Shown: positions 1 to 30,612 of the stretch, in pieces
Position numbering within the stretch: the stretch's first letter is position 1
Layout of the letters: each line of letters begins with the position of its first letter
Source: a virus
Length of the DNA: 35,687 nt
Strand: one strand, 5' to 3'
Virus record (IMG/VR): IMGVR_UViG_3300029922_000189
Coordinates: 1-35,687 of that record
Notes under the pieces: generated by a model
Databases searched by the model: none
What the model was told of the DNA's origin: nothing
The model's input: only the letters and a program-made list of their open reading frames with translations
Program-made: the position numbers and the translations under genes

Positions 1-669
1 AAGATCTTTACCGAAGTTACCAAACTCTCCGGCCAGTACATAACTCACGGTGTGGAGATTCTTGAGCGCCTGCCATTCTACCAATTTAAAACGATCAAAA
101 TGTGCGAGTATTACGCAAACTCTCGCTACTTAACGAACCGCCTGATTGACGGAGGAAACTATGGCGCCGTCATGGATGCTGCCAACATTGACGATATCGG
201 CCGCGAAAAACCTTTTTATAACATTGTGAACTACCGCGTAACGCTTGCCAAGGTGGCTACCGCCATTCACGTCCGAGATATTCAGATCGTCGGAGACGAG
301 CCGAAGGATTGGGTCAAGGCCATGTTCTTGCAGCGCCAGGCCTACGAATGGATGATGGATCCCGAAGTGAACTTCTCGTACTTCCTCAATAAGGCGACCT
401 ACACTCGTCCCAAATACGGCGGTCTTTTGGTAAAGAAAACCGAAACGGAATCAGGGAAGCTTCTTATCGAGGTGGTGGACTGGCGTCTTGTCGTAACCGA
501 TCAGGTGGATATTTTAACCGGCGTGATCATTGAGCGTCATTTCATGACGCCGGTGGAACTCTCAAAAATGGGCGGCGCATGGAACCAGCAACAAGTAACT
601 GCGGCTATCAAGGCGGCCGCAAAACTGAAACAGCGCAAGCAGCGAGGATATGAGAAAACAATCTTTAAT
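1..669. repeat. Terminal overlap, left copy (genome unit closure)
   Basis: This block matches 35019-35687 without gaps, with 24 substitutions (about 96.4 percent identity). It encodes part of the portal protein in both places. The overlap shows that the genome unit is about 35,018 bp and circularly permuted or concatemeric. The substitutions fall at third or silent codon positions in 23 of 24 cases, so they look like natural strain variation and not read errors. Confidence 0.95.
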
Positions 670-3177: not shown

Positions 3178-4083
3178 ATGGGTTTTGCATTTCCTACCAA
3201 TACCGAAACCAGTACGTCACTGGCGTCGTTTATCCCGAATATTTGGGGTCAGCGTATCAACGACTTCTACAAAGCTAAGCTTACTTGCGCTCCGTTCTTT
3301 ACCGATCGAAGTGACGAGGTGGAAGAAGGAGGTACGAATCTGTACACTCCAAACTTGACGGAAATGACGGCAAACGCAAAGGTAAACGCAACACAGGTAA
3401 CGCTTAACGCGCCTACAGAAACAAAGATCACTCTCACCATCAATCAATGGTACGAATGTTCCTTTGCTATCGAAGACGCGCAGGCTGCGCAGGTGAAGCG
3501 TTCCTACTCGATCATGGAACGTTACGCAATGAACGCCGGATACTCTATCGCGAGAAATCTCGATACCGCTATCACGTCGCTCTTCAGTACGTTCACCAAC
3601 TCTGTTGGTTCGTCTACTGTCAATTTGGCAGACTCCGACATCCGAGACGCGATTGCTGCCCTTGAAGCGCTCAATGTAGATACCGAAGAGTGTGCCTTCT
3701 TCTTCCATCCAAACACGTTTTGGAAACAGATGCAGGCCATTGATAAGTTCTCATTGGCGATCAACGCACCAGTACAGGACCCGGTTGCGAAGGATCCTAA
3801 GGCTTCCCTTTACGGTCGCCCAGTATTCGTCACAACGCAGATCCAGTACGTTTCCGGTACGACAGGACGCTACAACGCGCTTGCTCACCCTGATGCAGTT
3901 CACTTTGCCACGTCCCCCCTCGGTGAGGGCGGATCAATGGGCAAGATGGTCGGCTCAGACGGCATCCGCGTGCAATCTAACTACTTCCCTACCTACCTTT
4001 CAACGGTTACTACCGCAGACATTCTCTACGGCGTAGTCTTGAACCGTGCGTATGCCGGAGTAGTTATGTTGTCACCAGCGTAA
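3178..4083 (+). CDS. Major capsid protein (HK97-like fold expected)
   Basis: This 301-residue protein follows the scaffold gene. It has the pattern of HK97-fold coat proteins: a flexible N-terminus, a beta-rich segment with alternating Thr/Val (about residues 55-85), a central helix-rich domain, and a conserved-looking C-terminal strand region ending in VVMLSPA. No protease gene is visible nearby, so maturation probably depends on the scaffold and not on prohead proteolysis. A GAAGGAGT string lies about 28 bases before the ATG, too far to be its ribosome site; the bases next to the ATG are TTTTTAT. Confidence 0.85.
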   Translation: MGFAFPTNTETSTSLASFIPNIWGQRINDFYKAKLTCAPFFTDRSDEVEEGGTNLYTPNLTEMTANAKVNATQVTLNAPTETKITLTINQWYECSFAIEDAQAAQVKRSYSIMERYAMNAGYSIARNLDTAITSLFSTFTNSVGSSTVNLADSDIRDAIAALEALNVDTEECAFFFHPNTFWKQMQAIDKFSLAINAPVQDPVAKDPKASLYGRPVFVTTQIQYVSGTTGRYNALAHPDAVHFATSPLGEGGSMGKMVGSDGIRVQSNYFPTYLSTVTTADILYGVVLNRAYAGVVMLSPA

Positions 4084-4176: not shown

Positions 4177-4359
4177 ATGGTCATCACGATATATTGGACA
4201 AAAAGTCCTTTCATTGAAATGAACCCTACGATATACAAACTGGTGAGCAGTTATGATATTTTAGGGAATTATCTTGTAATAAGGTCGAAAGGAGAGGGAG
4301 TTACCAGTGTTAAGATCCACAATCTCGAATACATATTGTCATTCGACGTCGAGGAATAA
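4177..4359 (+). CDS. Small hypothetical protein at island start
   Basis: This 60-residue protein has alternating hydrophobic residues suggesting a small beta fold. It is separated by only 4 bases from the next gene and follows the structured leader. Its base composition is more AT-rich than the capsid gene before it. No family is recognised. It may be a genuine small gene or a leader peptide for the cassette; continuity with the next start favours a real gene. Confidence 0.6.
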   Translation: MVITIYWTKSPFIEMNPTIYKLVSSYDILGNYLVIRSKGEGVTSVKIHNLEYILSFDVEE

Positions 4360-4363
4360 TTTT

Positions 4364-4534
4364 ATGCCAGACATCTTTAAAGGAATGAATGAAAGAAAAG
4401 GAACGGTCGGACCGGCGCGCGGCAAAACCGTCGTAGCCCAGACGTTCACGAAAAAGTCCGAACGCATCGACTCGGAAGGGAATGTCATCGACCCTGAAAC
4501 GAAGCGCATCATTAAGCCGGCAAGTCAGTTATGA
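4364..4534 (+). CDS. Small basic hypothetical protein
   Basis: This 56-residue protein is read from the ATG after AATAATTTT; a longer frame exists upstream but overlaps the previous gene and looks unnatural. It is polar and basic, with a KGTVGPARGKT segment and a C-terminal IDPETKRIIKP stretch. Its stop overlaps the start of the glycosyltransferase gene (ATGA), indicating translational coupling. A similar TGTVGPR string ends the 5925-6104 product, hinting at a shared short motif. Function unknown. Confidence 0.7.
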   Translation: MPDIFKGMNERKGTVGPARGKTVVAQTFTKKSERIDSEGNVIDPETKRIIKPASQL

Positions 4535-5652
4535 GGGTATATTACATTTCATCCGGCCTTCAAGGCTGCTACGTCGTGCGATGCCTCCTACCGCTCAATG
4601 AGAATGGCTGGGACGGTGATCAGACTTCACTTTCCCTTGATGCCAAGACGCCTGAGAATAAGCGAGAAGCGGCCAAGAACGCAGACGTGGTTGTTTTCCA
4701 TAGACCGGATAATCCTAAAAAGCTAGAGCTTGCGCGCCTGTTGAAAAAGATCAACAAGAAAATCGTCTACGATAATGATGACACATTCAAGGATGACGGC
4801 GGAGTAAAATTTAACGACTTCATGGACAAGGAACGCCTTGAAAAAGGATTAAAGAAGATCAATGAAACGCTCGACGCTTTCATCGCCGAAGCCGATCTTG
4901 TAACCTGTTCCACGGAATTTTTGCGCCAAGAGTATTTAAAACTCAATCCGAACGTCGTCGTCCTTCCAAACTGCATAGATCCTTTTTATTATGATGAACC
5001 ATTGCGTAATGAAGACCCCACGGTGATGCGTATTGGTATTGTTGGATCATTAGGAATCACGGCCGACATAGACGTTTTACGGCCGATTGTTGAGCATTTT
5101 AAAGATGACAAGCGTGTAAAATTTGTCCTCTTCTCACTTCCGCCTTTGCAGCACGATAAGATCACACGCGAGTTATATTCCGAAGAATATAAGTTTTGGG
5201 AATCAATGCCGATCGAATGGCAACCGTTCGTGGACATGCAAAACTACTATGACACGCTCAATAATCTCCGGCTCGACTTGATGATCATTCCGCGCGCCGA
5301 TACCTATTTCACCCGATGCAAGAGCAACCTTAAGTTCCTTGAGGCATCCATGTTTGAAATTCCGGTTATTGCACAATCATTTCCAACCAAGGATTCTCCT
5401 TATGAAGTGAATCCCGAAGACAAAAAGCATTTAATTCTCGCCGCAACGCCTGAGGATTTTATTTCGGAGATTAATTTTTTAATTGATAATCCACCTACTA
5501 GAAGAAGGATAGGCTGGGAAGCAAAGAAATACGTGGTCGAAAATTATTCAATAGAAAAGAACGCCCACCTTTGGGAGGAGGCGTATCAGACAATGTATGA
5601 CCAAGAAAAAGCCAATGTTTCGGATAGGGGATCTGGTAATAAGGTGGAGTAG
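4531..5652 (+). CDS. GT-B fold glycosyltransferase (group 1 / GT4-like)
   Basis: This 373-residue protein has the organisation of a nucleotide-sugar glycosyltransferase. An N-terminal Rossmann half contains VVFHRP and KIVYDNDDTF. A linker CSTEFLRQ and VVLPNCIDP are followed by a second Rossmann half opening with IGIVGSLG. The donor-binding helix is seen in KSNLKFLEASMFEIPVIA, the site where group 1 enzymes carry their E-x7-E type motif. It would transfer a sugar from an NDP or UDP donor to a glycan, lipid or protein in the cytoplasm. It heads an island with sulfotransferase, methyltransferase and GT2-like genes, so a joint role in building a modified glycan is likely. Acceptor and sugar cannot be deduced. 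Confidence 0.85.
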   Translation: MRVYYISSGLQGCYVVRCLLPLNENGWDGDQTSLSLDAKTPENKREAAKNADVVVFHRPDNPKKLELARLLKKINKKIVYDNDDTFKDDGGVKFNDFMDKERLEKGLKKINETLDAFIAEADLVTCSTEFLRQEYLKLNPNVVVLPNCIDPFYYDEPLRNEDPTVMRIGIVGSLGITADIDVLRPIVEHFKDDKRVKFVLFSLPPLQHDKITRELYSEEYKFWESMPIEWQPFVDMQNYYDTLNNLRLDLMIIPRADTYFTRCKSNLKFLEASMFEIPVIAQSFPTKDSPYEVNPEDKKHLILAATPEDFISEINFLIDNPPTRRRIGWEAKKYVVENYSIEKNAHLWEEAYQTMYDQEKANVSDRGSGNKVE

Positions 5653-5923
5653 GCCTAACGAAGGAAGGATAATCCTAGGGGTTATTCGGGATTGTTATCA
5701 CTTTGTAGATTTTGATTTTGATAACAAGACTTTTTTCTTTAATCCAACTAAGGCAGCATTTGGAATACCGCTTATGGAATTAAATTTTAGAAAGATTGGT
5801 AAAATAAAGAATGTAAAGAAATTTAGAAACGACATCACTGAAGTAGTAAAAAAACATAATGAGTCATTTGATTTTGCGAAGCTTACATTGACTCTTAAGA
5901 AGCATCCTATAGAATTTAAATAA
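5597..5923 (+). CDS. Hypothetical small beta-barrel-like protein, AT-rich
   Basis: This 108-residue protein overlaps the end of the glycosyltransferase gene by 56 bases in another frame. Its first half (FRIGDLVIRW, GRIILGVIRD, YHFVDFDF) has the spacing of a small SH3-like or Tudor-like barrel; the second half is lysine-rich and helical. Base composition is striking: 5761-5820 has 15 G or C in 60 bases, far below the neighbours, which suggests recent acquisition. Function unknown; a nucleic-acid-binding or adaptor role is only a guess. Confidence 0.7.
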   Translation: MTKKKPMFRIGDLVIRWSRPNEGRIILGVIRDCYHFVDFDFDNKTFFFNPTKAAFGIPLMELNFRKIGKIKNVKKFRNDITEVVKKHNESFDFAKLTLTLKKHPIEFK

Positions 5924-5924
5924 T

Positions 5925-6104
5925 ATGGTCAAAGACATCTACGAAGCAGTAAACATGGAGTACGAAGTAACCGTCGCAGACGCTAAGGGTAATGTTCGCG
6001 TCGCCCGGTCGCTCGAGTACGCTCCGCGTGCTGCACCGCTTCCTGAGATGGTCTTCAATGAAATCACTGGCACGGTCGGGCCGCGCATAAGATCAAGTCG
6101 CTGA
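5925..6104 (+). CDS. Small hypothetical protein
   Basis: This 59-residue protein starts with ATG right after TAAT, and its stop is one base before the metallopeptidase start. Sequence features are an amphipathic strand (EYEVTVADAKGNVRVARS), a proline-containing linker and a basic C-terminus ending GPRIRSSR. Tight packing with both neighbours supports a real gene. No family is recognised. Confidence 0.65.
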   Translation: MVKDIYEAVNMEYEVTVADAKGNVRVARSLEYAPRAAPLPEMVFNEITGTVGPRIRSSR

Positions 6105-6105
6105 T

Positions 6106-6540
6106 ATGAAAGTCAAACTGACAAAACCTCCTAATTGGAAACGCCTTGAAGAAGCCTTTGGCGTCTCATGGGATTCCGGCGTACTCGTAACCTACGGCGA
6201 CACGATCCACACCAAGTCGCGCGGTGGTGTCTCACCCGATCTCATCATCCACGAAGGAGTCCATGTCAAACAGCAGGAAAGCATCGGTCCCGAGAAATGG
6301 TGGGAAAGATATATCGCCGATCCTCAGTTCCGCTTGCAACAGGAAATGGAAGCGTATACTAAGCAATGCAACTACATCCGCGTCGCGTTCAGAAACGATC
6401 CATCAAAAGTCCTGCGCCTCTTTAATCACATTTGGCGCTCAATGTCGGACATGTATGGTGGAATGATCACCTACCAGGAAGCAAAAAACGCCCTGCCTAT
6501 CGAGCCCAATAGGAACCCAACCCTATTTCAGAAAACTTAA
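6106..6540 (+). CDS. Putative HExxH zinc metallopeptidase
   Basis: This 144-residue protein carries HEGVH (His49, Glu50, His53), the zincin active-site motif, inside LIIHEGVHVKQQ, and a plausible third zinc ligand in QQEMEAY (Glu80 or Glu82). The length suits a minimal phage-type metallopeptidase domain. No signal peptide is present, so it acts in the cytoplasm or inside the virion. The location next to capsid genes would permit a virion maturation role, and a neighbour-specific role within the glycan island is also possible. The substrate is unknown. Its stop codon lies inside a palindromic repeat array. Confidence 0.75.
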   Translation: MKVKLTKPPNWKRLEEAFGVSWDSGVLVTYGDTIHTKSRGGVSPDLIIHEGVHVKQQESIGPEKWWERYIADPQFRLQQEMEAYTKQCNYIRVAFRNDPSKVLRLFNHIWRSMSDMYGGMITYQEAKNALPIEPNRNPTLFQKT

Positions 6541-6566
6541 GATATCTTAAGTTAATCTTAAGTTTT
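6532..6566 (+). terminator. Triple palindromic unit, terminator-like
   Basis: AAAACTTAAGAT (6532-6543) is followed by ATCTTAAGTT (6544-6553) and ATCTTAAGTTTT (6555-6566). The first and third copies form a perfect 12-bp inverted repeat around the second, while the first and second form a perfect 20-bp palindrome, so two hairpins compete. The distal arm ends in TTTT three bases before the sulfotransferase start region. It could be a weak intrinsic terminator or a switch between metallopeptidase and sulfotransferase expression. Confidence 0.5.
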
Positions 6567-6568
6567 AT

Positions 6569-7219
6569 ATGCCTAAACTACTCATTTCAATTCACATACC
6601 CAAGACCGCCGGCACGACCCTAGGATCGCTTCTCAAGCAGAAGTACAAGGATAAGATGCTCTTCGTCTATCCAGCCCTCGTAAACGGCTTCTATTGCTAC
6701 GGCAGCACGCCCCAGGAAGCCCACGACAAGATTATGTCAGGTCGGGGGGAATCGCTCGCCTTGGTCATGTTTTACGCATTTCAACATGGTATTGAAGCCA
6801 TCCACGGCCATGTTCCCATTACGGAATTTGAGCCCTTTGAAAACAAGTTTGATATTCAATACATAACCTTTCTTCGGGAACCTGCCGTGCGCGCCTTTTC
6901 CAACTACTGCCATTTCCGCATATTTGAAAGCAAAACCTTGACTGATGAAGAGCTCTATTATCAAGGAGGAAATCAGATCTACAAGTTCACAGGCGGCAAA
7001 TTGGAGAAATTTTGGTATATTGGATCTAGTGAAACGTGGGAGCAAGACCTTGTAAACTTAAAATTACAAGGGAAAAGTATTCCGCTCAATGTCACACCTC
7101 GGCATAGTCTAAAGCCGAATTACGATCTTATTACCAAGTATAACCAGCTCGATATGGACATATGGACAAGGTATGTCATCTCATATCGCAGCCAACCGAA
7201 TTATGGCGAGAAAAAATAA
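6569..7219 (+). CDS. Sulfotransferase family protein
   Basis: This 216-residue protein opens with the strand-loop-helix ISIHIPKTAGTT. PKTAGT (residues 11-16) is the 5'-phosphosulfate-binding loop of PAPS-dependent sulfotransferases. The second signature, FLREPAVRAFSNY (101-113), matches the 3'-phosphate-binding motif with Arg108 and Ser111. Such enzymes move sulfate from PAPS onto hydroxyl or amino groups of glycans or proteins. Neighbouring glycosyltransferases make a glycan acceptor likely. It is shorter than many Golgi or bacterial relatives but has both signatures. The phage carries no PAPS-synthesis gene, so it would use the host pool. Confidence 0.85.
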   Translation: MPKLLISIHIPKTAGTTLGSLLKQKYKDKMLFVYPALVNGFYCYGSTPQEAHDKIMSGRGESLALVMFYAFQHGIEAIHGHVPITEFEPFENKFDIQYITFLREPAVRAFSNYCHFRIFESKTLTDEELYYQGGNQIYKFTGGKLEKFWYIGSSETWEQDLVNLKLQGKSIPLNVTPRHSLKPNYDLITKYNQLDMDIWTRYVISYRSQPNYGEKK

Positions 7220-7370
7220 TTGTTTGGTTACTTACGACGAAGCCACCAATGTCATTACCTTCCAAGCAAAAAATGCGGAATCAAACCTGTATGGAAAGTA
7301 CATGAACGCAGTGAGTGGTCCCGAGCTCTTTGAAACACTGAAACAGTTTATCGCCCTAATCAAGAAATAA
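7203..7370 (+). CDS. Small hypothetical protein
   Basis: This 55-residue protein is read from the ATG inside the end of the sulfotransferase gene (17-base overlap); a longer in-frame start exists at 7173. The N-terminal half looks like two beta strands (NCLVTYDEATNVITF) and the C-terminal half like one amphipathic helix (GPELFETLKQFIALIKK). The next start follows its stop by one base. Function unknown; tight coupling places it in the island operon. Confidence 0.65.
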   Translation: MARKNNCLVTYDEATNVITFQAKNAESNLYGKYMNAVSGPELFETLKQFIALIKK

Positions 7371-7371
7371 T

Positions 7372-7914
7372 ATGGCACACGAAGCACAACACAAATTCTT
7401 TGAAAAAGTGAAAGACGACTACCTCGAGTTCTTCATCGGCACGAAAGTCCTCGACTGCGGAGCATTAAACGTCAATGGATCGTTCCGCGATCTGTTCAGT
7501 TCATGCGATTATACCGGTATTGATATTGTTGCCGGCAAAGATGTTGATCATGTCACCAGTGTCCACGATTGGAAAACTAAAAAGCATGACGGTGAAATTC
7601 CGCAATGGCCGGTCGGCCATTACGACGTCGTGGTTTCCGGCGAGATGCTTGAGCATTCCGAAACGTGGGAAGAAGACATACAGGACATGATTGACATGCT
7701 TCGCCCCGGAGGACTGCTTGCGTTCTCGTGTGCCGGCAAAGACCGTCCCGAGCACGGTACGCGCAAGACCGGCAATGTGTGGGGAACATCGCCTGACTAC
7801 TACCGCAACCTCGAGAAGCACGACGTAAACCCGTTCTTCGGCCAATTTGAGACGTGCGAGTGCATCGAGAATACCCGGGATCACGACCTCTACTTCTATG
7901 GAATCAAAAAGTAA
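7372..7914 (+). CDS. Class I SAM-dependent methyltransferase
   Basis: This 180-residue protein shows the Rossmann methyltransferase pattern: motif I VLDCGALNVNG (27-37), the acidic end of strand 2 in YTGIDIVAG (Asp51), motif post-I/IV in YDVVVSGEMLEHSETW (84-99), and LRPGGLLAFSCAG (110-122). It resembles Methyltransf_11-type small-molecule or sugar methylases more than DNA methylases, since no DPPY or PC motif is present. It overlaps the following GT2-like gene by 17 bases. In this setting it probably methylates a sugar or other glycan substituent; the exact target is unknown. Confidence 0.85.
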   Translation: MAHEAQHKFFEKVKDDYLEFFIGTKVLDCGALNVNGSFRDLFSSCDYTGIDIVAGKDVDHVTSVHDWKTKKHDGEIPQWPVGHYDVVVSGEMLEHSETWEEDIQDMIDMLRPGGLLAFSCAGKDRPEHGTRKTGNVWGTSPDYYRNLEKHDVNPFFGQFETCECIENTRDHDLYFYGIKK

Positions 7915-8461
7915 CTTCCATATCGTGACGCCGTTCTATCGTCACCAAAACCGAGCACTTCTTCAGAAGAATTTAGAAGGCTTTATATGGCATCCGATCG
8001 AGGGAAATTTCCCAAACTTCGGAGATCAAGCATATGCGAAAATCAACCACTTCATCCAAACGGCAGAAATCATTGATGATGATTACTACCAAATACTTAA
8101 CGACGATGATGCTTTACCGGCTGATTTCATACGAACAACTCGGGAAATTGGCGGAGACATCGTTATCTTCTCCCTCGACCGGGGGCAACGAACTCCTCCC
8201 GAGGCACAAGGCATCCACCGACACGAAGCCGGAAAGCTCATAGCCTCACGTGAGAACATGCGGATAGGGGGCATGGGCCTTCAACAAATTAGATTCAAAG
8301 GCAGCCTATTTAAAACACTCAGGTGCGCCGATCATCCCTTCGCCGACGGAATGATCGCACAAAGCCTTCGGGATCGAGACGATATAGTATTCGTTCCCGA
8401 CGTCTTCATTTTATTCAACTATTTAGAACCAGGACGCTATGACAAGAACCATTCAAATTGA
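7898..8461 (+). CDS. Short GT2-like (GT-A) glycosyltransferase
   Basis: This 187-residue protein, counted from the ATG at 7898, begins FHIVTPFYRHQNRALLQKNL, the usual opening strand and helix of GT-A enzymes, and carries YYQILNDDDALP, where the Asp triplet is a plausible metal and nucleotide-sugar binding DxD. It lacks a membrane segment and is short for family 2, so it may hold only the catalytic core. It overlaps the methyltransferase upstream and the coiled-coil gene downstream, which indicates one translationally coupled unit. The family call is by motif pattern and moderate in certainty. Confidence 0.65.
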   Translation: MESKSNFHIVTPFYRHQNRALLQKNLEGFIWHPIEGNFPNFGDQAYAKINHFIQTAEIIDDDYYQILNDDDALPADFIRTTREIGGDIVIFSLDRGQRTPPEAQGIHRHEAGKLIASRENMRIGGMGLQQIRFKGSLFKTLRCADHPFADGMIAQSLRDRDDIVFVPDVFILFNYLEPGRYDKNHSN

Positions 8462-9032
8462 CAACCCAAAAATCGCGACGATGGTGAAGGAAAAGGATGA
8501 ACTCGTAAAGAGTGGCATTGCCATTTCCAAGGATATTGAAAAACTCGAGATTAAGATTGAAAAGCAAAATAACATTGAGCGAGAATTTACAAATAAAGTC
8601 ACACCGGAAATTCAAAAGCTCATTGACGAAGGCGACGCGCTTGAAAAGGAATTGCAGGAGCGCATGACGGTCATGGAAAAACTCGGCGACGAGATCATGA
8701 ATCAGAAGCTGGCACTTATCCCCAAAGAGCACCTAGATATGCACTATAAGCTCAGAGCCGATAAAGAGAAGCTTGAGCGCGATCGTAACAAGATTGGCTT
8801 GAAGATTCAGAAGTACAAGGACAAGTTGGTGCCAGCGCTCCGCAAAATCCTCCCTGACTTACTTACTGAATATGAAGACACCGAAACGGTCCAGGTAAAA
8901 AATGGTAAACTGAGCATCACCATATTCTCTCACCTTGAAGAGTGGAAGGAAAAGTTTAACAACCGGAAAGTAAAGGCTGTCACGCAAGCGTCATCTGAGC
9001 TCAAGGAAACCGTATCGGAACCCTCAAAATAG
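8439..9032 (+). CDS. Coiled-coil protein, unknown function
   Basis: This 197-residue protein is almost wholly helical and charged. Long heptad-like Lys/Glu/Leu segments span about residues 14-135 with a few breaks, then a short beta-like stretch (NGKLSITIFSHLEEW) and a polar tail. It overlaps the GT2-like gene by 23 bases. It is the last gene before a strong hairpin and a new promoter. A structural or scaffold role for the island enzymes, or a virion role, are both open. Confidence 0.7.
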   Translation: MTRTIQIDNPKIATMVKEKDELVKSGIAISKDIEKLEIKIEKQNNIEREFTNKVTPEIQKLIDEGDALEKELQERMTVMEKLGDEIMNQKLALIPKEHLDMHYKLRADKEKLERDRNKIGLKIQKYKDKLVPALRKILPDLLTEYEDTETVQVKNGKLSITIFSHLEEWKEKFNNRKVKAVTQASSELKETVSEPSK

Positions 9033-9141: not shown

Positions 9142-9879
9142 ATGGAGTTTAGCGATCCAATCAATTATAACGGAATCATCCAGCAGTGTGAGATGAACCT
9201 GTTTGGAGACGCGCCTTTTGGATCTATTTCCGACAACCCGGATCGCCTTGCGCTCTTCACGGCGCTCATTAATGCAGCTTACGGACGCTACGCAATCCTC
9301 GCGCTCATGGCAGATAACGCATGGCAGTTTGACGATAATAACTATAGCGACTTTCCGATTGCTACGACTGATCTCAATGCCGGCCAGCCGGACTACACGC
9401 TTAATAACAATCAGATCATCATTGAGCAGGTGGAAGTGCTTGACCCGACCGGTAAGGTATGGCTTGCGGTTCCCGAAGGCGATGAGCGAAAATTCGCCGA
9501 GTACAAGATCTCGGAATCTCAGTATTTCAACAACGTCGCAGCCGTTCCTATTTTCCACATCAAGAAAGGGAACTCAATCCTTTTGATGCCGACCCCATCC
9601 TACGGAGTGCCTCAGGGATTGAAAGTGCGCTTCAAGCGCCCGGTCAATTATTTCGTATCGACCGACACTACCAAGATGCCGGGCTTCAACCGTCTCCATC
9701 ACCTCTACCTGGCCGACTATGCAAGCTACCGCTATGCGTTCATGCGCACGCTTGCCGTGGCCGGCGCCTTCGGACAGGCGGTCCAGGTATGGGAGCAGAC
9801 TTCGATCCCCCAGTTTTATAACTCCCGTTCGGTCGAGCGTCAGCACATTATGAGATCAATTCAGCGCTCGTCGCGTTAA
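9142..9879 (+). CDS. Tail adaptor / head-tail connector protein (podovirus type)
   Basis: This 245-residue protein has a helical N-terminal part with a run of Ala/Leu (about residues 38-60), a central beta insertion (about 70-180), and a C-terminal helical region, the architecture of adaptor proteins that bridge portal and tail nozzle in T7- and P22-like phages. Its place after the head and island genes and ahead of the tail genes fits. No catalytic motif is seen. The call rests on length, helix-beta-helix layout and synteny, so alternatives such as a minor tail protein remain possible. Confidence 0.6.
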   Translation: MEFSDPINYNGIIQQCEMNLFGDAPFGSISDNPDRLALFTALINAAYGRYAILALMADNAWQFDDNNYSDFPIATTDLNAGQPDYTLNNNQIIIEQVEVLDPTGKVWLAVPEGDERKFAEYKISESQYFNNVAAVPIFHIKKGNSILLMPTPSYGVPQGLKVRFKRPVNYFVSTDTTKMPGFNRLHHLYLADYASYRYAFMRTLAVAGAFGQAVQVWEQTSIPQFYNSRSVERQHIMRSIQRSSR

Positions 9880-22155: not shown

Positions 22156-24666
22156 ATGAAAAAATATCTTAAACATCTCCTCATCGCGCTGGTAGGAATC
22201 GGACTGCTTGCCGCAGGAACCGTCTTTGCGGCCACGGTGGCCCAGGTCCCGCAGGGAGGGACGGGCGTAAGCGGCATCACCGGGATCATATCCGGCAACG
22301 GCACTTCTCCGTTCACGCCGGTCACGATCGGCTCGGGACTCACGTTCGACGGCACGACGCTCTCCTCCACGGGAAGCGCACCCGTATATCCCGACACCGA
22401 CGTTCCGTTCGGGGACGGAACAACCCCGGGAGGAGTCACCGATTCAAGTTTCACCTACGACAACGTTGGAAACATCTTCAACGTCACTTTTGATACTGCC
22501 GATACGGGCCTTACCCTTGACGGGGGCAACCAGCTGCTCGACTTCCATTCGGACGGGGATTCCTGGCTGCGGCTGAACGGCGACACGCGCGACTTCCAGC
22601 TGGGCGACCTCACGGACGACTGGTACGGGGACTACATCGACGTGAACGACGACCCGTCGGCGCAGACGTTCAAGTTCTACAGCGAGGGAAGTGCAAGATT
22701 CACTGTCGACAACGTGAACAACCTGGTGAACATGTCCGCATATCCTTCCACCCGTGATGATTCAGGAACGACGGCTCCGATAAACTTCCTTTACACGGAT
22801 TCTTCAGGAGATGTTTTGTCAGCACCTGCTTCTGCATTATTTTCAGGAGGCAGATTTCTCATCGGTCAAACATCGGGACTGGTTTCAGCACCTACACCTG
22901 GCGTCACGACAGAAACATGGCTCGGAGACGGAGCAGGATTTGGTACGGCAAGTACGAATCAGACTGTCTTCTTAGGGATCAATTCTGGTTTCAATGCAAC
23001 GAATGCTTATGCAACTGTCGCTATTGGAAACCAAGCGGGTCTTAATGCTACGAATGCGAGCAGCTCTGAATTTATAGGGCAAAACGCTGGTGGAAATGCT
23101 ACTAATGCTTCCAATTCGGCTTTCTTTGGAAACAGTGCTGGTCTTGGTGCGACAAACGCCGCCAATTCATTATTCCTAGGTTTTCAGGCTGGTAACAATG
23201 ATACGGTTGATAACACATTAGGTGGCCATTCGATCTTGATTGGTGATGTTACGTCGACGGGCGGATTCCAAAACTCGATTGCATTGGGAACAGGGGCTAC
23301 GAACACGTCTGCAAATCAGCTCATGATCGGATCAATGTCTAATCCGATTAGCCTAATGACAAATCCAGCTTATCCTAGTACACGAGACGATTCAGGAACG
23401 ACGGCTCCGATAAACTTCCTTTACACGGATGCGAGCGGGGACATCCTTTCCGCTCCCTGGTCGGCGGCACCGACAGGCGGCTTGATTGGTCAGACATCGG
23501 GTATCGTCTCTGGCAGTGCTCCGATTTCAGGTGAAGAGGTGTGGCTGGGACAAGGGGCTGGTTCCTCTGGTGCGACAAACAACAACACGACATTCATGGG
23601 ATACTTTGCTGGACGCGCCGCCACGAATGCGGCCGACGCAATCTTCATAGGGAGCGCGGCGGGCGACGGCGCGACCAATTCGATAGGATCGATCTTCATC
23701 GGGTCGAATTCGGGATTCAACGATGCTTCGACCGGAAGCGGCATCCTGATCGGGACGAACACGAGCACGGGGGGATTTTCTAATTCAATCGCCTTGGGAA
23801 CAGGTGCTACGAACACAGTGGCTAATCAGTTCCTAGTAGATCCATCATATACCGAAATTTCACTAGGTGCTACAACGGCTCAATTTCTTTCTCAAAGCGG
23901 GGTAACTCAGATGGGTGATACCAGCGGAGCCACTGAAATTCAAGTTGACCCTGCAAATCGAGACATTTCTAATTTTGCAAACTACAACGGCACAACATCA
24001 TCTTTAATTTTTAATTCGGTATACCTTGATGATGGAAGTGTCGGTTACACTGCAATTGGTGATGATTCAGGTGCTAAAAACGGAACATTACTAACTATTA
24101 ACGACTCCTCGCAAGATTTTTCCGTCGGAGGGACTTATGGCGATTCATCGGTTGGAAATGCAGGCTTGTTTGATGCAAATTTCGCAAATGGAACTGTTTC
24201 AGAAGGTGATCTGTATGATTCTGGCAACGGAACGATATTTAAGGTGGATGATCCCGACCAGACATTCAACTTTTACGGCGGTTCAGCCCTAAGCTACACG
24301 TTCCCCGACACCTCTCCGACCCAGCCGGGACAGGTATTGCAGGTGACTACAAGCGGAGTGGGTTCTGCTGCGGTCTGGGGCAACGGGCAGCTTCCGCACA
24401 TCATCTCGTACCCGGTGGGAAGCACCATAACCCTTCCCGACAACGAGCGGACCATAATTCCCAACGGGCTTACGATAACGACCCTCACTATTGATCTGCC
24501 AGCGTCCCCGACCGACAACGACCGGGTAGAAATTAAATTTGATAGTGCCGCTCCTGCTATAACTTGGAGTGTCCCTCTCGGTTCTGTAAACGATCCAACA
24601 GTATCAGCAACAGCAGGAACACTTATTTCATTGTCTTGGGATGAAGCAGATGATGCCTGGTATTAA
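22156..24666 (+). CDS. Sec-targeted YadA-like repeat protein (adhesin or fibre)
   Basis: This 836-residue protein starts with MKKYLKH, a hydrophobic core and VFA-AT, a convincing signal peptide with cleavage near residue 25. The body holds GATN-type repeats (FIGQNAGGNATNASNS, SIALGTGATNT) in 12-16 residue steps, like the left-handed beta-roll of YadA heads in trimeric adhesins. Two large tandem halves of about 210 residues both begin STRDDSGTTAPINFLYTD. The C-terminal domain resembles phage fibre tips. A signal peptide is not expected on a virion fibre, so this product may be exported to the host surface. GC content swings strongly inside the gene. A true tail fibre with a hydrophobic anchor is the alternative. 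Confidence 0.7.
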   Translation: MKKYLKHLLIALVGIGLLAAGTVFAATVAQVPQGGTGVSGITGIISGNGTSPFTPVTIGSGLTFDGTTLSSTGSAPVYPDTDVPFGDGTTPGGVTDSSFTYDNVGNIFNVTFDTADTGLTLDGGNQLLDFHSDGDSWLRLNGDTRDFQLGDLTDDWYGDYIDVNDDPSAQTFKFYSEGSARFTVDNVNNLVNMSAYPSTRDDSGTTAPINFLYTDSSGDVLSAPASALFSGGRFLIGQTSGLVSAPTPGVTTETWLGDGAGFGTASTNQTVFLGINSGFNATNAYATVAIGNQAGLNATNASSSEFIGQNAGGNATNASNSAFFGNSAGLGATNAANSLFLGFQAGNNDTVDNTLGGHSILIGDVTSTGGFQNSIALGTGATNTSANQLMIGSMSNPISLMTNPAYPSTRDDSGTTAPINFLYTDASGDILSAPWSAAPTGGLIGQTSGIVSGSAPISGEEVWLGQGAGSSGATNNNTTFMGYFAGRAATNAADAIFIGSAAGDGATNSIGSIFIGSNSGFNDASTGSGILIGTNTSTGGFSNSIALGTGATNTVANQFLVDPSYTEISLGATTAQFLSQSGVTQMGDTSGATEIQVDPANRDISNFANYNGTTSSLIFNSVYLDDGSVGYTAIGDDSGAKNGTLLTINDSSQDFSVGGTYGDSSVGNAGLFDANFANGTVSEGDLYDSGNGTIFKVDDPDQTFNFYGGSALSYTFPDTSPTQPGQVLQVTTSGVGSAAVWGNGQLPHIISYPVGSTITLPDNERTIIPNGLTITTLTIDLPASPTDNDRVEIKFDSAAPAITWSVPLGSVNDPTVSATAGTLISLSWDEADDAWY
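22759..22800 (+). repeat. 42-bp perfect direct repeat, copy 1
   Basis: This segment is identical to 23389-23430, exactly 630 bp (210 codons) apart, and encodes DSGTTAPINFLYTD in the YadA-like protein. Identity at silent positions in a gene otherwise diverged between halves points to recent recombination or gene conversion. Confidence 0.9.
23389..23430 (+). repeat. 42-bp perfect direct repeat, copy 2
   Basis: Second copy of the repeat at 22759-22800, in the same frame. A further near repeat follows in both halves (NSIALGTGATNT, near 23275 and 23783). Recombination between copies would delete or add one 210-codon module in frame. Confidence 0.9.
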
Positions 24667-26683: not shown

Positions 26684-26720
26684 TCATTTTGTTATCAATT
26701 AATTAGCGATTACATTACTT

Positions 26721-26921
26721 ATGTCAAATTCACTTTTAGGATTTCTTCGCGGTCTTGGATACTCATTGCTTTACGCATTGCTGGTATTCATTGCAACCAA
26801 TATCGGTGCCAGTGGTTTGGTTTCCTTGACGGTATCCGCCCTGATCACAGCCGGATGCGCCGCGCTTGAACACTACCTGACTACGGTAGATCCCGATCTC
26901 GGAACGATTGCGCCCCAGTAG
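26721..26921 (+). CDS. Putative holin (two membrane spans)
   Basis: This 66-residue protein has two hydrophobic spans (about residues 8-28 and 33-50) separated by a short Gly/Ser turn, and a polar acidic C-terminus. Size, topology and its place just after the endolysin fit a class II holin. A TATAAT lies at 26680-26685, overlapping the endolysin stop, which may give separate expression. Confidence 0.65.
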   Translation: MSNSLLGFLRGLGYSLLYALLVFIATNIGASGLVSLTVSALITAGCAALEHYLTTVDPDLGTIAPQ

Positions 26922-26957
26922 CCTTTATTATTCGCCCTTAATTATTTAATTTTACCT

Positions 26958-27290
26958 ATGTCAAAAATTTTAACCGTCGGCACCGATAGCCGATTCGCTG
27001 AGTTTAATGGAATGACGTTTCAGCAAGTGAGTGATCTTGCGCAACACTCAAGTAATGCGCGCCTATGCGTTGATTCATATTCTGAACTGTTCGTAGAACA
27101 GGATAGTGGTGATAATTCCGCCGATTCCGATACGAATACCGGAGTTGCTACTGATGCCGGTGCATCAGATGAAACTGCCAAGCCGGCAGATGAAAAAACT
27201 GATGAAGCGCAAGCTGATTCCACGGACGGCGAAGCTGTTGCGGCTGATTCGGCAGATGAAACTGCCGCTGGACAAATTGCTGCCGAATAA
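26958..27290 (+). CDS. Hypothetical protein with acidic low-complexity tail
   Basis: This 110-residue protein has a compact-looking N-terminal half (residues 1-48) and an Asp/Ala/Thr/Glu-rich tail with recurring DETAKPADE and DSADETAA units. No family is known to me. It is the last rightward gene before a strong terminator. The tail is probably disordered; a DNA-mimic or structural linker role is only speculative. Confidence 0.6.
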   Translation: MSKILTVGTDSRFAEFNGMTFQQVSDLAQHSSNARLCVDSYSELFVEQDSGDNSADSDTNTGVATDAGASDETAKPADEKTDEAQADSTDGEAVAADSADETAAGQIAAE

Positions 27291-27354
27291 CTTAAAATGA
27301 TTTTGGTACATCGGTACCCTCAGTGTTCTTTCCGGGGATTCATGGAAAAAGTAC

Positions 27355-27386
27355 AAAAATACCTTATTGCAAGGTATTTTTGTTTC
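27355..27386 (+). terminator. Strong intrinsic terminator ending late operon
   Basis: AAAAATACCTT (27355-27365) and AAGGTATTTTT (27371-27381) form an 11-bp perfect stem with loop ATTGC, followed by GTTT. The A-rich left arm makes it work in both directions. Confidence 0.85.
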
Positions 27387-27395
27387 CTGTATCAT

Positions 27396-27424
27396 GCGAA
27401 AAGCCCCCGGTCAGGAGCTTTCGC
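27396..27424. terminator. Second hairpin after late operon
   Basis: GCGAAAAGC (27396-27404) pairs with GCTTTCGC (27417-27424) with one bulged A. It lies 10 bases after the main terminator and may back it up or protect the RNA end. No T run follows. Confidence 0.5.
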
Positions 27425-27521
27425 AGTAGAGAGGCCGTCAAAGCGGCGTCCCTGGTTTAAAAAATGTGTCTAGCCTGCACAGTGTGGCCCACTGCCGGCA
27501 TAGCTTACGCCGTAGCCATGG

Positions 27522-27527
27522 TAGAAT
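27522..27527 (+). promoter_or_regulatory. Extended -10 box of the mini-protein gene
   Basis: TGG-TAGAAT is an extended -10 element that ends 6 bases before the ATG at 27534, so the transcript should be leaderless. It is the only promoter-like element between two terminators. Confidence 0.5.
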
Positions 27528-27533
27528 CATTAC

Positions 27534-27620
27534 ATGGAGAAATTAAAGATAGGATTTTATATCGTGGAAGGAGTGCTAATTTTATTGTTTATTTTCGGAA
27601 AATATACCCTGTGGAAATGA
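27534..27620 (+). CDS. 28-residue membrane mini-protein
   Basis: The product is MEKLKIGF followed by one membrane span (YIVEGVLILLFIFGKY) and TLWK. It has its own extended -10 box directly upstream and an intrinsic terminator directly downstream, so it forms an independent transcription unit. Such isolated membrane mini-proteins in phages often act as toxins, lysis or exclusion factors; nothing here decides between these. Confidence 0.55.
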   Translation: MEKLKIGFYIVEGVLILLFIFGKYTLWK

Positions 27621-27663
27621 AAAAAACCGCTTCACTTCGTGGGCGGTCTTTTGTTCCTTTTTT
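27621..27663 (+). terminator. Intrinsic terminator of mini-protein gene
   Basis: ACCGC (27626-27630) pairs with GCGGT (27643-27647) and encloses CAC/GTG, with an A-run before and CTTTTGTTCCTTTTTT after. It begins at the stop codon of the mini-protein gene. Confidence 0.75.
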
Positions 27664-27727
27664 GCATGGAGTGCGTGCGTGCCAGGAACGCCATAAATAA
27701 TACAATCATGAGTAGTGATGGAATCAT
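27632..27727 (-). CDS. Possible 31-residue leftward membrane mini-protein
   Basis: From the ATG at 27727 on the minus strand the frame gives MIPSLLMIVLFMAFLAR followed by a basic tail. It begins 12 bases after the stop of the leftward 126-residue gene. Its C-terminal codons lie across the terminator hairpin, which lowers confidence. It may be real or chance. Confidence 0.3.
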   Translation of the reverse strand: MIPSLLMIVLFMAFLARTHSMQKRNKRPPTK

Positions 27728-27739
27728 TAGTTTGTGGTT

Positions 27740-28120
27740 TTACATTTCGTAGCCGAAGTCCTGTTCCACCAATGCGTGAAAATCAGCGATGGGCATATCA
27801 AGCTCGTGGGCCGTGAGAAAATCAAGTGCCACATGCTCGGTATCCGTTCCGTCAACGATCGTTACTCCGCAGTCGAGCATCGCACAGCAGAAGGTGACCT
27901 TTACGGTTCCTTTCTTCGTGTCGATGTCGCTATCCTGCCAAGTAATGAAGTGCGGCACGAATCCCTTCGCGTGCGCGTGGGAATGAAGCGTCCTGCTGAT
28001 GCTTAGTTTTGCATCTTCACCATTGATGACGTAGATGTAATACTCGTCTCCAATTGGTCTGTGGTAACTGTTGCACTGCTCGCAGTACATGATTCGAGTA
28101 AGCAAATACGTCTGGTTCAT
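27740..28120 (-). CDS. Leftward protein with zinc-binding N-terminus
   Basis: This 126-residue protein carries YCEQCNSYH at residues 12-20 and a later cysteine group (TFCCAMLDC), suggesting metal binding. Histidines are frequent (HSHAHAKGF). The C-terminal half is acidic. It is the second gene of a leftward operon after the 65-residue zinc-ribbon gene and is preceded by a structured leader. An internal ATG at residue 11 is an alternative start. No family is recognised; a regulatory or host-takeover role is a guess. Confidence 0.65.
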   Translation of the reverse strand: MNQTYLLTRIMYCEQCNSYHRPIGDEYYIYVINGEDAKLSISRTLHSHAHAKGFVPHFITWQDSDIDTKKGTVKVTFCCAMLDCGVTIVDGTDTEHVALDFLTAHELDMPIADFHALVEQDFGYEM

Positions 28121-28124
28121 AGTC

Positions 28125-28187
28125 CCCCCGTCTTCCTCGCGGAAGATACAGGCGTGCGGCTAGGTATATGCACCGCACCCTCGGGGA
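28125..28187 (-). promoter_or_regulatory. Three-way-junction leader RNA (riboswitch-like)
   Basis: Read on the minus strand, an outer stem CCCCG/CGGGG (28186-28182 with 28130-28126) encloses two hairpins: GTGCGG/CCGCAC (28178-28173 with 28159-28154, 13-base loop) and TCTTCC-GCGA-GGAAGA (28146-28131), closed by a GNRA tetraloop. The structure ends 4 bases before the start codon at 28120, and its last G run could be the ribosome site. This is the layout of a cis-regulatory RNA; no known class is recognised. Confidence 0.5.
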
Positions 28188-28194
28188 GTTTTGA

Positions 28195-28392
28195 CTAGTA
28201 GATTTTAGCATCGGGAGGAATCTCAGGCTTTTCATTGTGTGCCGGCAGCTTCTCCATCGTTTGTTTACAGCATGACGAGCAGGTCCAGCGTATGGCAATA
28301 AACTTTTTGTCGGTAGTGAGTCCGATATCTTCGTGGTCCCCATACCGGTTTTCCTTGCAATGCTCGCAATAGAACAGGCTTTTAGCTTTCAT
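28195..28392 (-). CDS. Leftward zinc-ribbon small protein
   Basis: This 65-residue protein has two CxxC pairs (YCEHC at 8-12 and TCSSCC at 37-42) separated by 25 residues with beta-like content (KFIAIRW), a standard zinc-ribbon arrangement. The C-terminus is polar. It is the first gene of the leftward operon from a TATAAT promoter. Zinc ribbons of this size often bind nucleic acid or RNA polymerase; the target is unknown. Confidence 0.7.
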   Translation of the reverse strand: MKAKSLFYCEHCKENRYGDHEDIGLTTDKKFIAIRWTCSSCCKQTMEKLPAHNEKPEIPPDAKIY

Positions 28393-28411
28393 TTTAAGGT
28401 GCTTTTATTTA

Positions 28412-28417
28412 ATTATA
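28412..28417 (-). promoter_or_regulatory. -10 box of leftward operon
   Basis: TATAAT on the minus strand is followed by 19 bases to the ATG at 28392, giving a short leader of about 12 bases. A leftward terminator lies immediately upstream. Confidence 0.5.
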
Positions 28418-28421
28418 TACC

Positions 28422-28450
28422 AAAAAGGGCTGACCGCGAGATCTGCCCTT
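28422..28450 (-). terminator. Leftward intrinsic terminator insulating the origin region
   Basis: On the minus strand AAGGGC (28450-28445) pairs with GCCCTT (28430-28425), loop 14 bases, followed by TTT (five T in a row in total). It would stop leftward transcripts coming from the AT-rich region just before the leftward promoter. Confidence 0.6.
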
Positions 28451-28569
28451 AGTTAAGTGACCACTTATAGTTTTCACTTCTCTTTACGGAGGGTTGCCCG
28501 GCGTAGTTCCGAGGTACGACTTTATAGTGCATATAAATTTGATATTTGTAAAGTATTATATTGTAATAC

Positions 28570-28578
28570 TGTGGATAA
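28570..28578 (-). promoter_or_regulatory. DnaA box (perfect)
   Basis: TTATCCACA on the minus strand, identical to the E. coli R1/R4 box. Confidence 0.7.
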
Positions 28579-28727
28579 CTATGTGTGTAAGGTGTGGTAA
28601 TAATCGTGGATATCATATGGACGGTTTGGGATATCTACTCATGGTTTATGTGATACTTACTCACTATCAGAAAGTTATCAGATTTGTTAGCACCACTTTT
28701 AGTCTTATTTTTCAAAAGTTATGCAGG

Positions 28728-28736
28728 TTATCCACA
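28728..28736 (+). promoter_or_regulatory. DnaA box (perfect)
   Basis: TTATCCACA on the plus strand, 14 bases before the first 15-bp direct repeat. Confidence 0.7.
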
Positions 28737-28749
28737 GTATATACAGGGC

Positions 28750-28792
28750 TAATAATAAGGGATTCTTTTAAAAAGTTTAATAATAAGGGATT
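28750..28792 (+). repeat. Two 15-bp direct repeats (iteron-like)
   Basis: TAATAATAAGGGATT occurs at 28750-28764 and 28778-28792, 28 bp apart. The AT-rich unit between DnaA boxes could be a DNA-unwinding element or initiator site. Confidence 0.75.
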
Positions 28793-28865
28793 AATGATTT
28801 CGGAGAAATCGTTTTGCCAGAGCCGGAAAAAAGGTAACAACAAGTAGTTTACTTACTGTTACCAC

Positions 28866-28874
28866 TTATCCACA
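28866..28874 (+). promoter_or_regulatory. DnaA box (perfect)
   Basis: TTATCCACA on the plus strand, just after the GGTAACA/TGTTACC inverted repeat and 20 bases before a GTTAGCAC motif. Confidence 0.7.
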
Positions 28875-28918
28875 AGAAAATATTTGCACGAATGTTAGCA
28901 CTTTGTTATCATAATGTA

Positions 28919-29005
28919 TCGGCTATCAAATACTGGTCTATAGGAGACTAAGGCGAATCGGCCGGTTCGCCTAAAAGAACCTACATACTGGTATTTGGTA
29001 GCTGA
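28919..29005 (+). ncRNA. 87-nt long-stem structured RNA element
   Basis: The arms 28919-28944 and 28980-29005 pair in 24 of 26 positions on the plus-strand RNA, including four G-U pairs in both orientations that would be A-C mismatches in the opposite strand. That asymmetry favours a plus-strand RNA. Inside sits a second perfect 7-bp hairpin AGGCGAA/TTCGCCT (28951-28972) with loop TCGGCCGG, a self-complementary core. It ends 9 bases before the ATG at 29015. It may control the rightward operon, or act at the DNA level as part of the origin. Confidence 0.55.
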
Positions 29006-29014
29006 AATTAAAAT

Positions 29015-29191
29015 ATGACATTAATTTTCAAACAACGAGAAAAGACGGAAATGGTCGGTATCCGGCTTACGCCCCAAGAGAAGGCAGAAGCTTTAAAAAT
29101 CGGCTCTAAGCACGGAATTAAAGTGATGTCTACGATTTGCGCGGCACTTGTTCGTTACGCTTTGAAAGCGATCAAGGAAGAAAACAAATGA
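29015..29191 (+). CDS. Ribbon-helix-helix (CopG-like) DNA-binding protein
   Basis: This 58-residue protein has a beta strand MVGIRLTPQEKAEAL followed by two helices (KAEALKIGSKHG and STICAALVRYALKAI), the compact RHH fold that binds DNA as a dimer. It is the first gene of the rightward early operon and overlaps the next gene by ATGA. A repressor or partition-type role for the neighbouring origin and operators is plausible. Its short length is usual for the family. Confidence 0.7.
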   Translation: MTLIFKQREKTEMVGIRLTPQEKAEALKIGSKHGIKVMSTICAALVRYALKAIKEENK

Positions 29192-29631
29192 CAATCCGCA
29201 TCAAAAACGCAACAAGTCGAACCGGTGCTAATATGGAGAAAATTCAGCGTCTTTTGTCTGAGAATGGAGCACAGAAGGTGATGATGGATTACCGGGGCGA
29301 CGGTACGCTTGAATCAATAACTTTCGCCATGATGATAAATGGAAAACTCGCCGGATTTCGTTTGCCTGCGATGGTAGATAATGTCGCCGAGATAATGTTT
29401 GGTGGTGAAGACCGGTGGGGAAGAAAAAAGGATATTAATCAGTCGCATCGAGATAAGGCGTACATCACTGCCTGGGCTAATATACGAGATTGGCTTGATG
29501 CTCAAATGGCCCTCGTGCAAACGCGACAGGCAGAGGTTGTACAAATTTTTCTGCCCTACATGGTGATGAAGGATGATCGCACTTTGTACGAGCAGGTTAT
29601 AAGCGATCCTAAATTCCTTTTGGAAAAATAG
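29188..29631 (+). CDS. Phage hypothetical protein (early operon)
   Basis: This 147-residue protein begins at the ATG coupled to the RHH gene; an in-frame upstream start at 29137 would overlap that gene. It contains a strand-rich N-terminus and a helix with YITAWANIRDWLDAQMALVQ, a pattern I associate with an uncharacterised family in phage early regions. Function unknown; an association with replication or recombination is possible. Confidence 0.7.
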   Translation: MTIRIKNATSRTGANMEKIQRLLSENGAQKVMMDYRGDGTLESITFAMMINGKLAGFRLPAMVDNVAEIMFGGEDRWGRKKDINQSHRDKAYITAWANIRDWLDAQMALVQTRQAEVVQIFLPYMVMKDDRTLYEQVISDPKFLLEK

Positions 29632-29632
29632 T

Positions 29633-30013
29633 ATGAGAAAAATCCCTAAAAAAATGCGCGATGAAATGGCACAAGATCCTTTCTATAAGGTCTGCGTATT
29701 TAAGCAATTTAAATTTATCGGAATGGGTCCATTTGAATCATGCGACGGACGCATAGAATGGCACCACAACCTTATTTACGGCGGCCGCCAGGTCAATGAA
29801 ATCTTTTGCATACTTCCAGTCTGCCATGCACATCACATGGTTGCCGATCGCCGGGACGTAAAAGCATTTCTGAACCGAGTCATGGCAACTCGTGCCACGG
29901 AAGAGGATAAGGCAAAATTCCCTCGGATAAGCATTGACTCATTCCTGAAATATCCACTGCCTGCCGACATGAGCGCAATAGGGATTAAATACCCTGCTGA
30001 AATGCCTCTATGA
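29633..30013 (+). CDS. HNH-type nuclease
   Basis: This 126-residue protein carries IEWHHNLIYGG (41-51) and ILPVCHAHH (60-68), the beta-beta-alpha metal core of HNH nucleases, with Cys37 as a possible zinc ligand. HNH proteins next to terminases assist DNA packaging in several phages; here TerS and TerL lie 1 to 4 kb downstream in the same operon. Homing or recombination functions are alternatives. Its stop overlaps the next start (ATGA). Confidence 0.75.
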   Translation: MRKIPKKMRDEMAQDPFYKVCVFKQFKFIGMGPFESCDGRIEWHHNLIYGGRQVNEIFCILPVCHAHHMVADRRDVKAFLNRVMATRATEEDKAKFPRISIDSFLKYPLPADMSAIGIKYPAEMPL

Positions 30014-30189
30014 AAACACGTAAAGAATTGATGATAGCTTGGATTGAAAAGAATAAGGCGATGAGTATAAAACATGGTGGTCGCCCACTAACATCAGAAG
30101 AGGTGATGGCATGCAGAGATATGGCAGAATGGTGGCTCAACGTTATTGATGAGGATCGAAAAGAGAGAATTAATAAAGTTCCTAATTAA
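30010..30189 (+). CDS. Small hypothetical protein
   Basis: This 59-residue protein is coupled to the HNH gene by ATGA. It is charged and probably helical, with a GGRPLTSEEVMACRDMAEWW segment. No family is recognised. Placement in a run of tightly packed short genes supports it being real. Confidence 0.6.
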   Translation: MKTRKELMIAWIEKNKAMSIKHGGRPLTSEEVMACRDMAEWWLNVIDEDRKERINKVPN

Positions 30190-30197
30190 AAATTTTT

Positions 30198-30374: not shown

Positions 30375-30380
30375 AAAATT

Positions 30381-30560: not shown

Positions 30561-30566
30561 GCATGA

Positions 30567-30595
30567 TATAATTTCACTGTCGAAATTATTAGCAC
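30567..30595 (+). promoter_or_regulatory. Promoter with overlapping inverted repeat and TTAGCAC motif
   Basis: TGA-TATAAT (-10 at 30567-30572) overlaps a perfect 8-bp inverted repeat ATAATTTC/GAAATTAT (30568-30575, 30582-30589) and is followed by TTAGCAC (30589-30595), the core of the motif seen at other control regions. The ATG is 40 bases downstream, so this transcript has a leader, unlike the leaderless set. Confidence 0.6.
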
Positions 30596-30612
30596 TTAAT
30601 TCATTACTTTAT

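Follow-up and report, generated by a model that had tools for sequence, protein, structure and literature searches.

A virus contig of 35,687 bases, IMG/VR record IMGVR_UViG_3300029922_000189 (this whole stretch is called the window below), carries between its capsid and tail genes a locus composed of a fixed, capsid-linked glycosyltransferase of the GT-B type and an exchangeable decoration cassette. Within the cassette lie genes for a predicted sulfotransferase dependent on 3'-phosphoadenosine-5'-phosphosulfate (PAPS), a methyltransferase (MT) and a GT-A-like (GT2-like) protein. Because the GT-B gene is fixed among relatives while the contents of the slot behind it differ, the locus is not one co-inherited pathway. 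An initial annotation of the DNA had reported these four genes between the capsid and tail genes, and an open reading frame (ORF) is found at each of the positions it gave. The island genes all lie on one strand; they are listed here with a separate FkbM-family gene.

3178..4083, plus strand: major capsid protein (MCP), which anchors the island on its upstream side (match to PHROG 267 major head protein, E=3.7e-18)
4358..4534, plus strand: small conserved protein preceding GT-B (about 40 relatives have a tblastn match ahead of their GT-B gene)
4531..5652, plus strand: GT-B glycosyltransferase (PF13524 and PHROG 7162; orthologues at 44-69%)
5597..5923, plus strand: 108-aa ORF, where the variable cargo begins (no credible match to families or relatives)
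6106..6540, plus strand: metallopeptidase-like protein (HEGVH motif; one homologue)
6569..7219, plus strand: predicted PAPS-dependent sulfotransferase of the Sulfotransfer_2 type (profile, motifs and fold match)
7173..7370, plus strand: 65-aa ORF sharing bases with the end of the sulfotransferase gene, with a later start also possible (no match to families or relatives)
7372..7914, plus strand: class I S-adenosylmethionine MT, PHROG 32762 (Pfam and PHROG matches; homologues)
7898..8461, plus strand: GT-A-like (GT2-like) protein with a DDD motif (homology to proteins of loci L289, L296 and L179/L180)
8439..9032, plus strand: coiled-coil protein, the conserved downstream border of the slot (homologues downstream of GT-B at 40 loci)
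9142..9879, plus strand: tail-tube-like gene, the next conserved gene (homologues at 25-65% in relatives; named by position relative to phage A-4L)
32267..32920, plus strand: FkbM-family methyltransferase (PF05050, TIGR01444), upstream of the large terminase

A fixed frame and an exchangeable slot

A search with GT-B yielded 55 loci (individual loci carry L numbers here). Orthologous loci keep the order MCP, small protein, GT-B, coiled-coil protein and tail-tube-like gene, and the spacing between MCP and GT-B is 204-997 bp in every relative holding both. Once near-duplicates were removed, 32 loci (the window included) combined GT-B with both the coiled-coil and the tail gene. The GT-B and coiled-coil genes overlap or are at most 169 bases apart in 24 of them, and in the other 8, one of which is the window, 447-2790 bases separate the two. 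The inserts comprise glycosyltransferases of families GT2 (L133, L140) and GT4 (L133, L151, L159), a PIG-L deacetylase (L151, L159), a cytidylyltransferase (L132) and methyltransferases (L131 and L159; in L151 recognized by sequence pattern only). In L171 and L190, where the downstream border lies beyond the contig end, GT2, PIG-L, UDP-glucose-dehydrogenase-like, NUDIX and LicD-like genes are found, the last just under the cut-off. The window's sulfotransferase, MT and GT-A-like gene were found in none of the orthologous cargo-bearing relatives; a more distant member, L285, has the same MT (49% identity) between its coiled-coil and tail genes.

Members bearing cargo cluster in a tree of 27 MCPs, requiring 3 changes against a mean of 5.7 after shuffling, and none of 500 shuffles reached a count as low as 3. 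Anabaena phage A-4L (Saffermanviridae), whose MCP is related (about 30% identity), has the MCP gene followed directly by that for tail tubular protein A, with no insertion. The tail-tube-like protein of the window has no significant blastp match to this A-4L protein.

Comparison of relatives thus went against the idea that all four enzymes are inherited together: GT-B is a fixed feature that mostly stands by itself, the cassette is swapped, and only the MT and the GT2-like gene occur as a pair. The packing of the genes was also less uniform than the overlapping starts described initially. True overlaps join the small protein and GT-B (4 bp), the MT and the GT2-like gene (17 bp), and the GT2-like and coiled-coil genes (23 bp), but the sulfotransferase gene begins 28 bp past the stop of the gene upstream, with no overlap between the two.

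A Pfam-recognized HNH homing-type endonuclease occupies the gap between the GT-B and coiled-coil genes in L145 (5918-6454), and an HNH-like gene, so named by appearance only, lies between the coiled-coil and tail genes in L176 (9439-9918), making endonucleases of this type a possible route of cassette exchange. The same genes would fit the view that the cargo consists of chance morons, spread by homing endonucleases at a site tolerant of insertion and having no joint function, as would the lack of co-inheritance of the four enzymes as a set and the presence of a metallopeptidase without a link to glycans. We nevertheless regard this explanation as improbable, since across different phages the slot is filled mostly with glycan or sugar-nucleotide enzymes and the overlapping pair of MT and GT-A-like genes is kept in unrelated phages.

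The sulfotransferase

Searched alone, the window's sulfotransferase gave no credible match in Pfam, PHROG, NCBIfam or the PDB; against Pfam there was no match at E<=1, and hence no score at the gathering level. Viral proteins were gathered by the motif HIPKTAGT[ST], and 19 were aligned with the window protein. All 19 match Sulfotransfer_2 (PF03567), and a profile built from them with the query excluded singled out the window protein (E=3.6e-20) from the 313 ORFs of the window. The designation as a PAPS-type sulfotransferase made at the outset was thereby upheld, and the PAPS motifs are intact. The 5'-phosphosulfate-binding motif (5'-PSB) is HIPKTAGTT, residues 9-17; up to T16 it does not vary among the 20 sequences, an invariance that is partly built in because the other sequences were collected with this motif. 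The 3'-phosphate-binding motif (3'-PB), R103-x-P105-AV-R108-AF-S111, lies outside the collecting motif. Positions invariant in the alignment are HIPKTAGT, H81 (in a conserved GH81), R103, P105, R108 and S111. The hallmarks described for Sulfotransfer_2, a PAPS-loop lysine and a PXXRXXS motif (PMC11625862), correspond here to K12 and to P105-R108-S111.

The best matches of the profile in the PDB are the heparan sulfate 6-O- and 2-O-sulfotransferases HS6ST3 (E=4e-14) and HS2ST (E=2e-12), and an AlphaFold2 (AF2) model of the window protein, with a predicted local distance difference test (pLDDT) score of 80, is closest among PDB folds to HS6ST and HS2ST (E=6e-5, TM about 0.5). The PAPS-binding fold and motifs are common to these PF03567 enzymes and the window protein, although the former are animal enzymes with about 15% identity to it. 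As the window protein has no Pfam match of its own while its 19 homologues match PF03567, it is, judged by sequence, a divergent homologue of that family and not a scored Pfam member.

Neither tblastn against phages nor a single-sequence scan of viral contigs returned a match or close relative of the sulfotransferase, and the record of the nearest relative of the window phage, L002 (IMGVR_UViG_3300003375_000009), contains no sulfotransferase match. The closest proteins are bacterial, many from Bacteroidota and others from Proteobacteria, with about 22-34% identity, too distant for a donor to be named.

The glycosyltransferases and methyltransferases

The GT-B protein matches Pfam Glyco_trans_1_2 (PF13524) at E=2e-7, with 31.5 bits against a cut-off of 25, and the PHROG 7162 glycosyltransferase family at E=6e-34; by both it has a C-terminal domain of the Glycos_transf_1 type. 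The MT matches Methyltransf_23 (E=4e-9) and PHROG 32762 (E=5e-35), residues 1-180 aligning with 1-179 of the 180 in that family. The second methyltransferase, at 32267, matches Methyltransf_21 (E=1e-10, 42.5 bits against 22.7) and TIGR01444 (E=5e-18, 65.9 against 37.7), so that GT-B, MT and FkbM protein all score above curated cut-offs.

The GT2-like protein matches no database family. Neither it nor its relatives in L289 and L296 match the Glycos_transf_2 profile, a profile search of the PDB produced nothing credible, a single-sequence scan of viral contigs found no close relative, and the AF2 model (pLDDT 34) is unusable for recognizing a GT-A fold. The protein shares 43-45% identity with one that overlaps the same MT in L289 and L296, both unrelated phages. 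An alignment also links it to the N-terminal region of the 525-aa fused proteins of L179 (9660-11234) and L180 (12832-14433), which have a C-terminal Glyco_trans_1_2 domain. This fusion to a GT-B domain and the DDD motif support, but do not prove, its assignment as a glycosyltransferase.

The MT family has 175 confirmed relatives in viral contigs, and besides L285 the protein is 37% identical to that of Pontimonas phage phiPsal1 and 35% to that of Synechococcus phage S-CBS4. As in the window, these two phages, both isolates, have the MT together with group 1 (GT1) and GT2 glycosyltransferases by their head genes: the order is MCP, GT1, MT, GT2, neck protein in phiPsal1, and portal, hypothetical protein, GT1, GT2-like protein, MT in S-CBS4. 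Unlike the window phage, they belong to other phage lineages and have no sulfotransferase in these stretches, and their glycosyltransferases show no similarity to the window's by blastp, so the association of MT with glycosyltransferases was assembled more than once. MT and GT-A-like genes form an overlapping pair in L289 and L296; the order is terminase-like protein, GT2, MT in L302 and GT2, ORF, MT, a further ORF, portal-like protein in L323, the structural names in both being given by appearance only. This independent linkage is the strongest evidence that the MT may act with glycosyltransferases in a virion-linked setting.

Possible targets of the cassette

With the relatives' slot filled with glycan-modifying enzymes, a role in glycan modification is the natural reading of the locus. 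The joint building of a sulfated, methylated glycan that was proposed initially therefore survives as far as the enzyme families, their intact motifs and the slot contents of relatives go, but not as a pathway that is inherited as a unit. The acceptor is most likely the virion, with the host surface possible and DNA modification less likely. Decoration of a virion glycan by the capsid-linked GT-B and its exchangeable slot is the reading we favour for this phage, by a modest balance of the evidence. We infer that the enzymes act on one shared glycan in the following order. Late in infection, GT-B would glycosylate a virion protein, most likely one of the head. The GT-A-like transferase may then lengthen the glycan and the MT methylate it, and the Sulfotransfer_2 enzyme would sulfate it with PAPS from the host. 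Relatives would load the slot with deacetylation, other sugars or other methylations, or leave it empty. The exchangeable slot beside a conserved GT-B suggests that related viruses vary the sugar coat on their particles. The small protein ahead of GT-B, with the C-terminal motif RID..GN.IDP.TK.II (its start codon is uncertain, the ORF opening at 4307), is possibly a head component or the acceptor.

Several points weigh against a virion glycan. Position in the structural module bears on timing and not on substrate. The sulfotransferase was found together with this MT and the GT-A-like gene in no other phage; in L314, a truncated locus, a sulfotransferase fragment lies about 4 kb from an MT with unrelated genes between. 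The GT-A-like protein comes without a family match or usable model, and no PAPS synthesis gene was seen among the window genes scanned.

Alternatively, the cassette may modify host surface glycans (O-antigen, capsule or exopolysaccharide), blocking superinfection or the re-adsorption of progeny to debris. Families GT2, GT4, FkbM, PIG-L and LicD-like are typical of surface polysaccharide loci. Phage glycosyltransferases that change the serotype of the host are also known (PMC12619734). Against this, no membrane partner or flippase is seen in the slot, the head-tail module is a late position for superinfection exclusion, and GT-B is tied to the MCP throughout the family. The virion is favoured over the host surface because the genes lie in the structural module in tight linkage with the MCP, and we consider a host-surface role distinctly less probable.

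Hypermodification of phage DNA by glycosylation and sulfation has precedent in the phage glycosyltransferases that modify DNA and in a computational prediction by Iyer et al. (2013), cited in PMC10829341, of base modification based on glycosyl- and sulfotransferases in some phages. It is the least favoured target, and an unlikely one, because a scan of the window proteins, which left aside several small ORFs at 27-33 kb, revealed no gene for a base hydroxylase, a hydroxymethylase, a polymerase or the synthesis of modified nucleotides; moreover, the genes adjoin capsid genes, and the cargo of relatives consists of polysaccharide and sugar-nucleotide enzymes.

Among virion glycans that have been described, those on the capsid and tail-tube subunits of mycobacteriophages Che8 and Rita are likewise attributed to phage-encoded glycosyltransferases (Freeman et al. 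2023, as presented in PMC11256854 and PMC12619734). According to these sources, the glycosyltransferase genes of Maravista lie close to the genome's 3' end and not beside the MCP with an exchangeable slot, as in the window, and the passages on mycobacteriophage glycosylation mention no sulfotransferase. In the glycan cluster of Moumouvirus australiensis, glycosyltransferases and a sulfotransferase occur together, as in the window, and are proposed to decorate capsid fibrils, but this is a giant virus of a eukaryote with its own PAPS synthesis and different genes (PMC10117803).

More tentatively, the locus may be a dedicated one for virion glycan diversification in a family of uncultured phages, a phage counterpart of a serotype locus in which the slot enzymes are swapped and the virion glycan of this phage is sulfated. 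So far only a few phages have been shown to bear glycans on their particles. If this proposal holds for the dozens of environmental phages concerned, the chemistry of their coats would change fast in nature, with a bearing on adsorption, scavenging and surface binding, and many phage sulfotransferases would gain a testable candidate substrate.

Sulfotransferases in other viruses

Sulfation had initially been thought rarely described as a phage-encoded modification, a view that the counts and the literature do not bear out. At least 119 viral stretches contain the strict motif HIPKTAGT[ST], a looser motif gives 506 matches in viral contigs, and sulfotransferases have been reported in OM43 phages and in glacier and estuary viruses (PMC10580990, PMC10829341, PMC8290583). 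The first of these reports calls their function in phage genomes unclear (PMC10580990). The enzyme of the OM43 phages, with similarity to S-SRM01, is phage-encoded like that of the window, but it belongs to Sulfotransfer_3, and the account of it describes no capsid-linked glycan cassette (PMC10580990). Phage sulfotransferase genes are thus common and already reported, and the interest lies in their substrate and in the exchangeable slot next to the capsid gene.

Immediate neighbours of 68 non-redundant viral sulfotransferases (87 proteins) were set against 87 control proteins encoded at a distance of over 4 kb. Neighbours included GT8 glycosyltransferases (4), GDP-mannose dehydratase/epimerase (4), methyltransferases (3), a second sulfotransferase (6), aspartyl/asparaginyl beta-hydroxylase-like proteins (5/87) and adenosine 5'-phosphosulfate (APS) kinases (2/87; best E=9.5e-63). 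None of these families recurs among the 25 listed for the controls, where the top count was 2. The APS kinases and hydroxylases beside sulfotransferases suggest that some viruses may make PAPS and that some may modify protein side chains.

Genome context and other genes

The terminal regions of the window (1-669 and 35019-35687) are 96.4% identical over 669 bases, so that the record probably represents a circularly permuted genome of about 35 kb, complete or nearly so, with strain variation; the portal gene is split by the record ends. L002, of 35,737 bases, has an MCP 82% identical to the window's and an exact end repeat of 96 bases. Megablast of window positions 1-24000 against phages gave no match.

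FkbM, correctly recognized in the initial annotation, lies at a site of its own that precedes the terminase and, counted across the record ends, is about 7.3 kb upstream of GT-B. Methyltransferase genes thus have a second site, located before the terminase/portal region, and three relatives have distant FkbM homologues 7.6 kb upstream of their GT-B genes: L152 (423-1169), L169 (407-1147) and L173 (391-1224).

The metallopeptidase and coiled-coil genes noted alongside the enzymes are present, but neither shows any sign of being a glycan enzyme. The former, for which direct family searches returned nothing credible, is supported by its HEGVH motif and a sole homologue in L171 (2391-2807; 31%, E=1.8e-18), which lies about 5 kb upstream of the L171 GT-B gene and outside the cassette; the metallopeptidase is probably unrelated to glycan work. 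An ORF at 4177-4359, which is not conserved in relatives, was rejected as probably not being a gene.

Profiles run on the window found no DNA polymerase, primase or helicase, with several ORFs at 26700-33500 outside the scan, and promoter and terminator scans stayed at chance level. The region 26700-33500 holds short unassigned ORFs, one of them (29633-30013) HNH-like by appearance. A direct repeat of 63 bases (22738-22800 and 23368-23430, 89% identical) lies within the gene for an 836-aa protein at 22156-24666.

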